The notes beneath the pieces are model-generated. The model had not been told where the DNA came from. It saw only the letters and a list, made by a program, of their open reading frames with translations, and did not search any database. This document shows positions 12,334-45,345 of a stretch of 46,526 bases of DNA, piece after piece. The stretch is from assembly GCF_000701525.1 (NCBI RefSeq), contig NZ_JNJC01000006.1, positions 1 to 46,526 of the forward strand, read 5' to 3'. How positions within the stretch are numbered: the first letter of the stretch is position 1; every line of letters begins with the position of its first letter. Source of the stretch: Mesoplasma grammopterae ATCC 49580 (GTDB lineage Bacteria > Bacillota_I > Bacilli_A > Mycoplasmatales > Mycoplasmataceae). Position numbers and translations under genes: made by a program.

Positions 12334-12669
12334 ATGAAGAATTTGGTACTATGGAAGAAGTGGAAATTCTTATATCTGAAGCAAAGAAAAGAAATTGTTA
12401 ATAATTTAGTTCAGAATATTGAAAATAATTTAATAAATGGAGAAGAAGTTATAATTGAGAACTTTGGTAAATTAATTAAAGTTGAAAAACCAGTAAAGCA
12501 AACAATTAATCCATCAAATGGAGAAACTGTAGAAGTACCTGCAACAACAATAATTAAATTTAAACCTTCATGTAATTTAAAATTAATTATGTCAGATACA
12601 AAATGAACTGGAATTAAATACAATAAAAAAACTATTGAAACAATAACAATTGAAGAAGAACAAAAATAA
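12334..12669 (+). CDS. Divergent HU-like DNA-binding protein, N-terminus possibly frameshifted
   Basis: From about 12391 to the stop the frame encodes the HU/IHF core: a helix IVNNLVQNIENNLINGEEV, the IENFGKL turn (GFGTF in HU), a DNA-arm with INPSNGETVEVPA (HU: RNPKTGEEIEIPA) and IIKFKPSCNLK (HU: AFKPGKALK). A basic tail of about 20 residues follows. The N-terminus in this frame carries two TGG codons, rare here, and no RBS. A better HU-like N-terminus, MEEVEILISEAKKR from ATG 12351, lies in another frame and would join through a shift in the AAGAAAAG run near 12384-12392. It may be a pseudogene, or it may start at a rare codon (TTA 12370, 7 bases after AGAAGTGG). HU proteins bind and bend DNA. 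Confidence 0.5.
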
Positions 12670-12691
12670 GTCCTTAATATTTGAGAAGCAG

Positions 12692-12725
12692 TCTGCATTT
12701 GTGAAAAGAAATGCAGATTTTATTT
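12692..12725 (+). terminator. Rho-independent terminator
   Basis: Nine-bp stem TCTGCATTT/AAATGCAGA with loop GTGAAAAG, then TTTTATTT, after the HU-like gene. Confidence 0.85.
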
Positions 12726-12759
12726 ATAAATAATTAGCATAGTAACAGAAAAAATAGAA

Positions 12760-12878
12760 GTTGGCGAGCAATAAGAATTAAAAGTGCTGAAAAAACTATA
12801 TTTCTTACAAGCAAAAATATTTAAAAATTGCTCACAAGACCTCTATTATTTCAGTGGTCTTGTTTTTTTTTTTTTTTT
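12760..12878 (+). ncRNA. Candidate structured small RNA ending in terminator with T16
   Basis: No ORF fits the 243 bases between the HU-like gene and the exported-protein gene. Nested pairing is visible: GAGCAAT (12766-12772) with ATTGCTC (12827-12833), enclosing AAGAA (12773-12777) with TTCTT (12802-12806). Six bases on comes AAGACC/GGTCTT (12836-12861), followed at once by G and sixteen T. That last hairpin is a strong intrinsic terminator with no gene ending before it. The arrangement fits a free-standing small RNA of about 110 bases. It does not match 4.5S, 6S, RNase P or tmRNA as I know them. The ncRNA call is inference from folding alone. Confidence 0.35.
12836..12878 (+). terminator. 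Hairpin plus T16 tract, possibly also a promoter spacer
   Basis: AAGACC/GGTCTT stem with a 14-base loop, then G and T16 at 12863-12878. The T tract also lies between TTGTTT (12860-12865) and TAGTATAAA (12881-12889), the likely -35 and -10 of the next gene. Confidence 0.6.
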
Positions 12879-12912
12879 GATAGTATAAATCTAAACACAT
12901 AAAGGAGTAAAA

Positions 12913-14418
12913 ATGAAAAAACTAGTCCAATTATTAGGAGTAATAACATTAACTGGAACATCTGTTATAACTGCTGTCTCAATTCAATCTTATAATTCTA
13001 CTCTTGACAAAGAACCTCAAGCTCAGATAGTTAAAAAAGAAACTATTGAAAACATCCTACAAGAATCTGTTTCTGAATTAAGTTTGAGCGAAGAAGAAAT
13101 TATTAATAATCTAGAAAATGCGTTAAATGATATTCCTGGAATTGAAAAAACTGAAATAAAATTAGAAGAATCTTTTAGTACTATAGAACAAGAATTTAAC
13201 GTTAAAGTTAGTTTAGCTAAAAATTTTAAATGAAATCAAGAAAATTTTGAAGGTATTTTCAAAGTAAAAGCGTCATTTGATGATACAAGCAAAATCCTTA
13301 ATCATTTGGAGAATGTTAAACAAAAAATAATTATTTGATTTGCAGAAAAATATTTTGATGCAAGAAAATGAGTTGGTACTTATCCTAATGATGCATCATT
13401 ATCTAAATCTAAATACACCTTTGAACTTTATGACTATTTAGAAATTGAAGATGATAGTTATATAAAAGATATTGAGCATTTTTCATCTTCTATTGAACAA
13501 GCAAATAATTCAAATCAATTTGATGATAATTCAATTTATAATATCGTAATTATTCCAGAAGATACAGTTGATAAAAGTAATAATAGCTTTGATGAAGTTT
13601 TAAAACCCTTTGCAATAAATTTTAATAAACAAACTATTGAAGATGCATTAGAAAATAAAACTATAGAAGTTAATACATTTATAGGAAAAAACGATAAAGA
13701 ACTTATAACTGAGATAGAAAATATTTTAAAGAAAAATAATGAAAATATTAAGTGAGATATTATTGATTTTTCCTTAGATATTAATAAATATCCTTATATT
13801 ATACATTTAACTCCTTCAAATAAAGAAACATTCTTTTATAAACCCGATCCAATTAAGCTAGAAGTATCTTATTTAGAAATACCCGCAATAACAAATAATT
13901 TAAAATTTGTTGAAGTTAAAAATCGAAAAATTGATAATGAATCAAAATTATTAATTGAAATTAAACAAACTTTAATTGACATTGACGAAAGACTTAATGA
14001 TGATAATGTTGAAATAATTTTGACTTGTGGTATAGAGACTATACAAGAAGTTCAAACTGAAGTTTTTACAAATTTTGAAGTAAAGGCTTTACAAAATTCA
14101 AAATTGAAAGGTTCTAAAACTTTTGATATAATTGATCAGAGAAAATCAATTGATGTAGTTCTTTCAAATTTAAATGAAGTTGAAGTTAATGATATTTCTA
14201 TTGCAGCTCATACTACTAATCTAAACAAAGTTAGAGATGCAATTTCTCAAATTGATTCAGATTTAACTAAAGATGATCAAGTCGAGTTAGTGATGATACA
14301 AGGAACTGTAGATGGTAACCTAATTTGCAAAGCAGTTAAAGTTAGAGCTAAACCTAATTCTAAAAAATATATATCTGAACATTTAGTTAAATTAGTTTTA
14401 ACTAATAATTTAAATTAA
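12913..14418 (+). CDS. Exported surface protein of unknown function, no lipobox cysteine
   Basis: A 501-residue protein with TGA-Trp codons. The N-terminus (MKK, then a hydrophobic stretch to about residue 25) is a signal peptide like those of Mesoplasma lipoproteins, but no Cys follows, so it is either released or stays anchored by the uncleaved signal. The rest is rich in Glu, Asn, Ile and Lys. A loosely repeated unit (helix of 'I-E-x-L/I', then paired strands ending KVK-A or FEVKA) appears at about 45-115, 240-330 and 335-420. No catalytic motif was recognised. RBS AAAGGAG, 7 bases before the ATG. A terminator follows. Its promoter has a T16 homopolymer between -35 and -10. Confidence 0.65.
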
Positions 14419-14676: not shown

Positions 14677-16116
14677 ATGAGTGATATACTTTTTCGTTGC
14701 CCCAAATGTGGCGAAGAAATTACAAGAGATTCGTTTAAGGATCATAATTCAAACTGAACAGTTATTGAAAACTATCTAGTTGAATTGAAACAAAAACAAG
14801 AAAATGAAATTCGTATACAACTTAAAAATGAATTAATAGCACAAATGAATGATAAGCAAATTGCTGAGATTAATTTAGTTAAACAAGAAATGCTAAATAA
14901 TTTTAATAAGCAATTAGAAGTTTTAAATATTTCAATTAATGAAAAAGATAATTTAATTAATAAATTAAATGAACAAAAAACATTAGAAATAGATAAAGAA
15001 AGAAATGCTGTTATTAATGAATTCAATGAAAAAATTCAAACATACGAATTAAATATTCAAAAACAACAAAATATTATTGATCAATTAAATCAACAAAAGA
15101 TTGCAGAATTGAATGAAGCAAAAAGTAATTTATTAAATGAGTTTAATAATGTTAAAAATTCATTAGAAATTAAACTTGCAAATAAGGAAGTTCAAATTAA
15201 AGCTTTAGATGAAAAACTAAATCTTGAAATTGAGAAAAATAAAGAAGTTTTAATTAACCAATTTAGTCAAGAAATAAATAATTTAAAACTAGAGTTAAAT
15301 AATAAAAGAATTGAATTAGAAAATTTAGTAATTCAAAAAGAAGCAGAATCAAAAACTAAAGAATTAACTTTAATAAATGACTATGATAAAAGGATAGCTG
15401 ATTTAGTGCAGGCTAACCGTGAATTTAAAATTATTAACTCAAAACGTAAAGGTGAAAACTTTGAGCACGAAGTATATGAAGATTTAGTTAAAGCATTTTC
15501 ATTATTTGATGGAATTGAAAAAATTACAACTGGTGAAAAAAAAGCTGACTACCTACAAACTATTAAAAATCATAAACGTCAAGAAATCGGAAAAATTGTT
15601 TATGAAGTTAAGAATGCTGAGTGAAGTAATACTTGAATTCCTAAACTGTCAACTGATGCAGCAAGCAATAATACTAAATATGGAATATTAATTGCAACGA
15701 GTTTTAATGATAAATATCCAGGATTACCGTTTGTAAGAAGTGATGAATATGAAAATATTTGAATAACAGATTCAGAAAGTTTTATTTTTGTTGGGCAAAT
15801 TGTAAGAAGACTAGTTGAATTTGAAAATGAATACAATCAAAAAATTAAAACTGTTACAAATTCTTCAGATAATCAGTTATTTAAAGAACTAGAAAAACAA
15901 AAGGCTGAGTTAAATGAGTATTGAACAATCCAATTTCCAACAGCATATAAGAAAATGCAAAAAGAATTAGAGGATCTTGATAAAGTGGCTGATAGTTTGG
16001 AAAGAAACTCATCGAGAATTAAAAAATCAATTAATGTTATTAATCAACAATTCTTTAATAAAGTACAAAAAGGATTATCTAGTATACTTGGAGAAATGAA
16101 AGCACAAGACAAGTAA
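14677..16116 (+). CDS. DUF2130 family protein: zinc knuckle, long coiled coil, PD-(D/E)xK nuclease-like domain
   Basis: A 479-residue protein. It starts with a CxxC knuckle (Cys8, Cys11 in CPKCGEE) and a nearby Phe-x-x-His, then a coiled coil from about 35 to 245 rich in Lys, Glu, Asn, Leu and Ile. From about 255 to 400 lies the DUF2130 domain, with the nuclease-fold residues Glu260/Glu263 in KGENFEHE, Asp291 in KADYLQ, and Glu310-x-Lys312 in YEVKN followed by WSNTWIPKL. A second short helical region closes it. DUF2130 belongs to the restriction-endonuclease-like fold; its role is not established. RBS AAGGAGGAT. It overlaps the next gene by 1 base, so both are translated together. A structured leader precedes it. 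Confidence 0.75.
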
Positions 16117-16949
16117 TGAGCGCAAAGAAGAAAAAATTGCCAAGTGGTTTTTCCTACAGTCAATTTTGAATAACAGAAAATTTAAAATTTAAATTGAATT
16201 TCTTTCTTAAAAGTAATTATTTAAAAGAAGAAAAAGATTATTACTATATTTTTAAAAAAGAAATATATATGGATTTTATCCTAACGTTTAATTGTAAACC
16301 ACCTAAATGATTGATACATGATGAACAAGAGTTAAAATTGGACGAAAAATCAGGAAAATTTTGTTCATGATATAAAATTTTCAAAGAAGATTACAAAATT
16401 ATAGTTAACGAAATAGAATCTAAGTTCGGAGTAAACAATTTCGTTGAAATTTATCAAAATAAATTAAAAGAAATGAATATACCAAATAGTCTATTTGATT
16501 CAAATAATAATTTAAAAAAATATTATTTAGATATATCTGAATGAATTTCATGATTAAGTATTTTTAATTATGTAAGCACAGAATTAAAAATAAAAAAAAT
16601 TAAATTTTCTACAAAAAATTACAAAATATATAAAAAAGATTTTAAAAATTTTGAAAAATTTTCTGACTATGAATTTTTTGAAAAAATAGATACATTTAGC
16701 GAAATTAAAATTAAAAATTTTTTGAATAATGTAAAACATTTAAGAGACTATTTTTCACACTTTTGAAATTTTAAATTTAAAGAAGATGATTTTATTGAAT
16801 ATAAGACTATTAAATTTTATACAAAATTAAATTTACTTGCTATTTTAATTGAAATAAATGATGAAAGAGATTTTTATATATTACATCTTGTAAATTTTAC
16901 TGACATAATAAATGCAGTTGAATCAAAAACAAATAGTATTATAAATTAG
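16116..16949 (+). CDS. HEPN/Abi-like protein with R-x4-H motif
   Basis: A 277-residue protein, visible only when its seven TGA codons are read as Trp. The ATG overlaps the TAA of the DUF2130 gene. The protein is rich in Lys, Phe, Tyr and Asn. At 204-230 it has VKHLRDYFSHFWNF, placing Arg210 and His215 in the R-x4-6-H arrangement of HEPN ribonucleases. The following helix (YTKLNLLAILIEI) matches the layout of the Abi_2 (AbiD/AbiF-like) family, where an RN-x-x-x-H motif is followed by a Leu-rich helix. Overall similarity to Abi_2 is limited, so the family call rests on this motif and its place. HEPN proteins of this kind often cut RNA to stop phage or act as toxins. A terminator follows. Confidence 0.5.
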
Positions 16950-44112: not shown

Positions 44113-45345
44113 ATGAATACACCATTAGCATATTTATTAAGACCAAAGACAACATCTGAAATTATAGGTCAAGAGAATCTATTAAAAGAAGATGGTTTGA
44201 TTAAAAAAATGATTAGTAACAATTTTTGTAGATCATTAATCTTTTATGGACCAAGTGGGGTTGGTAAAACTTCATTTGCTATAGCATTAGCTAATGATCT
44301 TAATATTGAATATGATTTGTTTAATGCAAGTTATGATAAAAAAGAAAATCTAACTAAAATTATTGATAAAGCTATAAATAAAGAAAGATTTATTTTAATA
44401 ATTGATGAAATACATAGATTAAACCGTGACAAACAAGATATACTTTTGAACTTTATGGAGAGTGGGAATGTCTATTTATTTGCAACAACTACAGAAAATC
44501 CATTTTTTACAATTAATCCTGCTATTAGAAGTAGGGCCACAATATTAGAATTAAAAAGAGTAAGTCATGATGAATCTTTTGCTTTTGTAAACAAATTAAT
44601 TAAAGATAAAAAAGTAGATATTAATATTAAACCTGAATCACTTAAATACTTATGTGAATTAAATAGTGGAGATATTAGAAGTCTTTTAAATAATATTGAA
44701 CTATTTCATAATTTATATAAAGGTGAAGAAATTACAATTGATTTAATTTCTTCAATTATTTCTCAAGGGAAAAATCCAAGTGGAGCTACTGGAGATGATT
44801 TTCATGATTTAAAATCAGCATTACAAAAATCAGTTAGAGGTAGTGATGTTGATGCTAGCTTACATTATTTTAGTAGATTATTATCTATTGGAGATTATGA
44901 AACTTTAATGCGAAGAATGGTTATTATGGCATATGAAGATATAGGATTAGCAAATCCAAGTTTACCACCAAGAGTTATGCAAGCATGTGATGCATTTAGA
45001 CAAATTGGAATGCCTGAAGGAATTATTCCATTAGGTTTAGTTATTATAGAAATGGCTTTAAGTCAAAAATCAAACTCTGCTTTAATGGCAAGTGGAAAAG
45101 CTTTTGAAGATGTTAAAAATGGAATGGCATATGAAGTCCCACTTCATTTAAAGGATAATCATTATAAATCAGCTGTTAAATTAAATAGAGGTGTTAACTA
45201 TTTATACCCACATGTTGAAGAAAAAGGTTGAGTTGCTCAACAATATTTACCTAATGAGATAAAAAATATTAAATATTTCAAACCAAAAACAAACTCTGCT
45301 TATGAAAGAAAACTTTGATCTTTATATGAGGAGATGAAAAAATAA
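44113..45345 (+). CDS. rarA: Replication-associated recombination protein RarA (MgsA)
   Basis: A 410-residue AAA+ ATPase. N-terminal PLAYLLRPKTTSEIIGQE matches RarA. Walker A is GPSGVGKTS at 46-54, Walker B IIDEIHRLN with Asp98-Glu99, then sensor FATTTENPFF and the arginine-finger region NPAIRSRATILEL. The C-terminal tetramer domain has SVRGSDVDASLHYFSRLL and RRMVIMAYEDIGLANP. RarA acts at stalled replication forks and single-strand gaps. RBS AAGGAGG. Two TGA-Trp codons near the end (45230 and 45317) add the true C-terminus. Confidence 0.95.

Follow-up and report, generated by a model that had tools for sequence, protein, structure and literature searches.

Mycoplasmas that live in vertebrates are known to phase-vary genes by way of homopolymers in promoters; in Mycoplasma hyorhinis, the vlp promoters carry a poly-A tract that varies by slipped-strand replication. 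Mesoplasma is a genus of insect- and plant-associated bacteria. In another mollicute, M. gallisepticum, repeat number also controls a lipoprotein promoter, that of vlhA, but the repeat is a GAA trinucleotide located upstream of the promoter and there is no spacer homopolymer (PMC5138195, PMC6258824). In Helicobacter pylori, the available portions of two reports describe promoter poly-T tracts of 13–19 bases at sabA, which vary within strains (PMC2715451, PMC4081817).

The locus considered here lies in a window of 46,526 nucleotides (the whole stretch of DNA analysed) from Mesoplasma grammopterae ATCC 49580, a mollicute using genetic code 4 with a genome of 806,944 bp. The original prediction was that a T16 tract forms the promoter spacer of an exported protein gene starting at 12913 and that it resembles the vlp tracts. 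On re-reading of the sequence, the tract proved to be exactly as described, and it is the longest homopolymer in the window, where the runner-up has only 9 bases (Table 1). The last three T of the −35-like TTGTTT form the first part of the tract, and an uninterrupted homopolymer lies between the −35-like and −10-like elements, both in the window and in the wider class of tracts described below.

Table 1. Sequence features of the T16 promoter region and of a related locus in the same genome (window positions unless a locus is named).
Feature	Position	Strand	Remarks
Terminator-like hairpin closing the HU-like gene	12690..12719	+	Separate from the hairpin at 12834
Perfect 8-bp inverted repeat ACAAGACC/GGTCTTGT	12834-12841/12856-12863	+	3′ arm directly abuts T16
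TTGTTT, −35-like element	12860..12865	+	5′ edge of T16
T16 homopolymer	12863..12878	+	Coding strand; putative length-variable promoter spacer
TAGTAT, −10-like element	12881..12886	+	2 bp 3′ of T16; spacer to TTGTTT 15 bp
TATAAA, alternative −10	12884..12889	+	Spacer from TTGTTT 18 bp
AGGAG ribosome-binding site	12903..12907	+	Read from sequence; ATG at 12913
Predicted exported protein, 501 aa	12913..14418	+	Genetic code 4
Cytosine-5 DNA methylase	L076:3064-4431		Same genome; TTGC-A16-GA-TAGAAT promoter; candidate phase-variable

We consider it probable, judging from sequence comparison, that the T16 tract is a length-variable promoter spacer giving a slipped-strand switch of the 12913 gene. 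RNA polymerase would use TTGTTT as the −35 element and TAGTAT as the −10 element, and slipped-strand replication within a population would add or remove a T, changing the spacing from 15 to 14 or 16 bp. The altered spacing would raise or lower transcription and would produce reversible switching of the surface protein. The tract belongs to a class that is conserved in Mesoplasma and in related Mycoplasmataceae and that would control genes for lipoproteins, for ABC and PTS transporters and for DNA methylases.

Could a run of this length simply belong to the tail of the ordinary run-length distribution? The genome contains 12 A/T tracts of at least 12 bases, all of which are 15–19 bases long and none 12–14, and the original prediction mentioned neither that the window's tract is one of these 12 nor that a hairpin abuts it. 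In 111 kb of the genome, we counted 138 A/T runs of 7 bases, 29 of 8, one of 9, one of 10 and none of 11–14; because this sample was drawn around the tracts, the gap in run lengths is meaningful and the density is not. Under a generous geometric extrapolation, one would expect 0.04 A/T runs of at least 15 bases per window and 0.7 per genome, compared with the 12 present. The gap indicates that long homopolymers are avoided in this genome except for a second population of 15–19 bases, which raises the question of why homopolymers are purged elsewhere and yet held at 16 in tract promoters. The coding-strand base is T in nine of the 12 tracts and A in three, and the genes downstream encode lipoproteins or exported proteins, an ABC transporter (PF00005), a PTS permease (PF00358, PF02378, PF00367) and a 5mC methylase (PF00145).

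Tracts of this kind were present in all six Mesoplasma relatives searched, at 3–11 per genome, and reach up to 44 per genome in the family. Altogether, 132 distinct tracts were collected, comprising 95 T-class tracts, 17 A-class tracts and 20 misfits (10 inside ORFs and 10 unassigned); sampling beyond the genus followed availability, and the promoters are predictions from sequence. The T-class lengths peak sharply, with one tract of 14 bases, 15 of 15, 47 of 16, 24 of 17, seven of 18 and one of 19, so that 86 of the 95 fall within 15–17. The base preceding a T-class tract is G or C in 89 of 95 cases, and the base following it is G in 65. A TTG lies at −3 in 30 of these 95 promoters and at −4 in 22, whereas other positions mostly hold 0–2; after removal of near-duplicates, TTG occurs at −3/−4 in 39 of the 73 remaining promoters against a background of 1.5 per position.

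At the other edge, 35 of the 73 promoters have a −10-like box no more than 6 bp from the tract, compared with 17.1 ± 3.7 in shuffled sequences (0 of 1000 shuffles reached the observed count), and there is no enrichment farther out. For the A-class, such a box within 6 bp was found in 14 of 17 tracts against 4.9 expected, again with 0 of 1000 shuffles. The spacer in tract promoters is most often 15–16 bp, and the predicted window promoter (TTGTTT, 15-bp spacer, TAGTAT) represents the commonest form of the class. Furthermore, a search of 248 genomes of the order for the composite pattern TTG-T14+-gap-TANNAT produced 76 matches in 45 genomes, compared with 10 matches for a backward control, and the TTGACA-A version produced 10 matches compared with none. 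As separate observations, L135 (G003:C1 ~470877-470912) consists of a T15 followed directly by an A17, an inverted pair that was not placed as a promoter spacer, and L086 holds a T15-A15 pair resembling it.

Several points count against the spacer explanation. Mapped M. florum promoters have a TAWAAT box with a TGN extension and no conserved −35 box (PMC7745072). TAGTAT in the window differs from this consensus. Since ordinary M. florum promoters show no conserved −35 box, the tract promoters would be unusual in having a −35 element, and the −35 role of the TTG depends on their being exceptional in this respect. About half of the tract promoters are without an obvious −10 box within 6 bp, and in the PTS group and some lipoprotein groups, the nearest one lies 8–34 bp from the tract.

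Such a distant −10 box fits a sabA-type rheostat better than it fits a change of spacer length. In a rheostat, tract length would alter the shape of the DNA or the contacts of the polymerase upstream of the core promoter and give a graded output; the available portions of the sabA reports describe a promoter poly-T of 13–19 that varies in clones (PMC2715451) and a multiphasic output (PMC4081817). The two systems share an intergenic poly-T of 13–19 bases at a surface protein gene, with control by the tract described for sabA in those portions (PMC2715451, PMC4081817). According to the same portions, however, the sabA tract lies beside the −35 element, outside the spacer, and no hairpin is reported for it, whereas the commonest form here has TTG on the 5′ edge and a −10 box on the 3′ edge, which places the tract within the presumed spacer, both elements being predicted. 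We regard a rheostat as unlikely.

At orthologous tract sites whose flanks are at least 80% identical, the tract length differed in 16 of 42 pairs; the same species recur among these pairs, which cannot be taken as independent, each species is represented by one genome, and assembled homopolymer lengths may be off by one. The drift between orthologous promoters amounts to 1–4 bases, while the tract itself is kept. Similarly, the 40 bases upstream of the tract are identical in the paralogues L205 and L208, which have T16 and T17, respectively, and in G020, five promoters belonging to a single lipoprotein family carry T16, T17 or T18. At these loci, which are other than the window's, tract length thus varies between close copies, across species or paralogues, while the flanks stay constant.

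These differences bear on whether the tract might be a fixed poly-T promoter element, kept by purifying selection and involved in no switch. The ABC transporter group has T16 in all seven Mesoplasma copies despite flank identities of 75–96%, which argues against switching and could mean that 16 is a fixed functional length, and the narrow peak of tract lengths points the same way. On the other hand, length differs in the orthologue pairs and in the paralogues with identical flanks just described, the M. seiffertii ABC orthologue (68% identical) has CTTG-T20-ATACAAT in the same place, and outside these tracts, the genome avoids long uninterrupted homopolymers. We regard a fixed element as quite unlikely and continue to prefer the length-variable spacer.

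The 5mC methylase gene offers the most telling comparison. Its tract is A16 in the window species and in G007 and T16 in M. seiffertii, whose protein is 54% identical, and in all three species, the promoter consists of TTG or TTGC, 16 tract bases, 2 bp and a −10-like box, with a spacing of 15–16 bp. The exchange of A for T leaves length and spacing intact, which favours a spacer as the main function over a U-tract or a site that depends on the base; it seems, from these comparisons, to be the length of the tract rather than its base that matters. The predicted role of the window's T16 as a promoter spacer therefore receives strong comparative support from the TTG at the 5′ edge, the −10 box at the 3′ edge, the length peak at 16, the conservation of orthologous tracts with drift and the interchange of A16 and T16. 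The prediction as a whole is partly supported, being limited by the single genome per species, by the T in place of the poly-A of vlp and by the lack of a conserved −35 box in mapped M. florum promoters.

The inverted repeat in front of the T16 tract would form a hairpin (12834..12863) of −12.3 kcal/mol (z −4.5), as good as which none of 200 shuffled sequences was. A stable, GC-containing hairpin followed directly by a T run is the shape of an intrinsic terminator, and an ordinary terminator whose T run happened to be exceptionally long, near a promoter by coincidence, would have this anatomy. The T run is, however, twice the usual length and located at a promoter, and in some relatives, it is replaced by A16. 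Many tracts are without any hairpin, a U-tract is incompatible with the A-class and with the interchange of A16 and T16 at the methylase gene, the TTG and the −10 box occupy fixed places on either side of the tract, and start codons follow closely on the tracts (95 T-class vs 17 A-class). An ordinary terminator is, on this evidence, a very improbable explanation.

What, then, could the hairpin contribute to a promoter spacer? The 3′ arm of a hairpin abuts the tract in 19 of 38 Mesoplasma T tracts (p ≤ 0.05), compared with 11 of 57 elsewhere; stem sequences vary among loci, while the pairing beside the tract is retained, and most cases are found close behind an upstream co-directional gene, within ~75 bp of its stop codon. 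Most tract hairpins would accordingly be terminators of those upstream genes, and the best reading is that the tract may often double as the U-tract of an insulating terminator. Combining the two roles extends the spacer explanation, as the hairpin and T16 would block read-through and a mis-spaced gene would be truly silent. The abutting hairpins, the pairing kept despite divergent stems, the proximity to stop codons and the stability of the window stem all speak for this combination. Against it, the low frequency outside Mesoplasma means that the hairpin is not needed by the tract; the HU-like gene upstream in the window already has its own terminator-like hairpin and does not need the one at 12834; and at L070, where the upstream gene is divergent, the hairpin-T16 has no gene to end. 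We consider the combined role plausible but somewhat doubtful.

More tentatively, switchable promoters of this kind could be spread over the genomes of Mesoplasma and its relatives as one set, with T16 serving as both an insulating-terminator U-tract and a spacer and leaving the off state truly off; by including methylases, the set could act as a phasevarion as well as a surface switch. Were this so, a phasevarion and a surface switch would operate together in organisms not regarded as antigen-varying pathogens. As for other RNA elements at the locus, a search for a conserved RNA upstream of the hairpin (12720-12834) gave no convincing homologue in 60 genomes, and Rfam returned no family at the tract, the top match being the GibS sRNA with an E of 8.6, far under the gathering score.

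How close is the resemblance to vlp? It is right in kind, as genes for surface proteins are preceded by a homopolymer of about 16–17 bases that has a −35-like element on one side and a −10-like element on the other, and the relatives G016 and G020 have paralogous lipoprotein gene arrays in which each gene has its own tract. It departs in that the coding-strand base is mostly T, as in the window, whereas the original prediction itself gave the vlp tract as poly-A; moreover, the tracts are scattered over the genome, also precede transporter, PTS and methylase genes, are often fused to a hairpin and are known here from sequence. The smaller A-class in the same genomes is a closer match to vlp than the T-class is. 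The window protein, too, is no vlp: vlp proteins form a multigene family with a lipobox cysteine, and here there is no such cysteine, relatives were found in the genus only, and the match to NF038029 is below the cutoff. One array in G016, L203-L210 (G016:C1:203900-249900), resembles a vlp locus: its paralogous lipoprotein genes are spaced by a few kb, and almost every one has a T16–T17 tract of its own.

In the literature that we searched, we found no report of homopolymer phase variation in Mesoplasma or Spiroplasma, an absence that is no proof, and no earlier report of a conserved tract-promoter set in Mesoplasma. In M. florum L1, a near-minimal model organism, the set comprises only four loci, with tracts at 44,577-44,592 (+), 284,203-284,218 (+), 437,602-437,617 (−) and 548,682-548,697 (−); TAGAAT follows the second of these at 284,224-284,229, and the two minus-strand loci have TACAAT and GACAAT as their putative −10 boxes. 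If the switch works, copies of a chassis strain would drift in the expression of transporters, PTS and surface proteins.

Among the neighbouring genes, the window also encodes a DUF2130 protein (14677-16113) with an almost gapless 3′ neighbour (16116-16946, 277 aa, no Pfam or NCBIfam match). The HU-like gene (12334-12669) matches PF00216 with an E of 9.8e-18, the first 17 profile positions being unmatched; reading from an ATG at 12351 in a different frame yields MEEVEILISEAKKRN up to a stop, and this could be the start that the HU-like gene lacks, so that a frameshift, real or due to sequencing error, is possible.

The 501-aa protein downstream of T16 appears truncated at 106 aa when the same ORF is read under code 11. 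The prediction of an exported or surface protein agrees with its lipoprotein-type N-terminus (NF038029 over residues 1–23, E 0.0012), although the lipobox cysteine is missing. A sequence search of the PDB gave no match for this protein, and its AlphaFold model was unusable (mean pLDDT 39.5). In G003, the gene for a 590-aa relative (61%) follows a second gene, which in turn has a T16 tract upstream. This relative (L033:1495-3264 (−)) contains a duplicated segment of ~90 residues near its N-terminus, which is single in the window protein.
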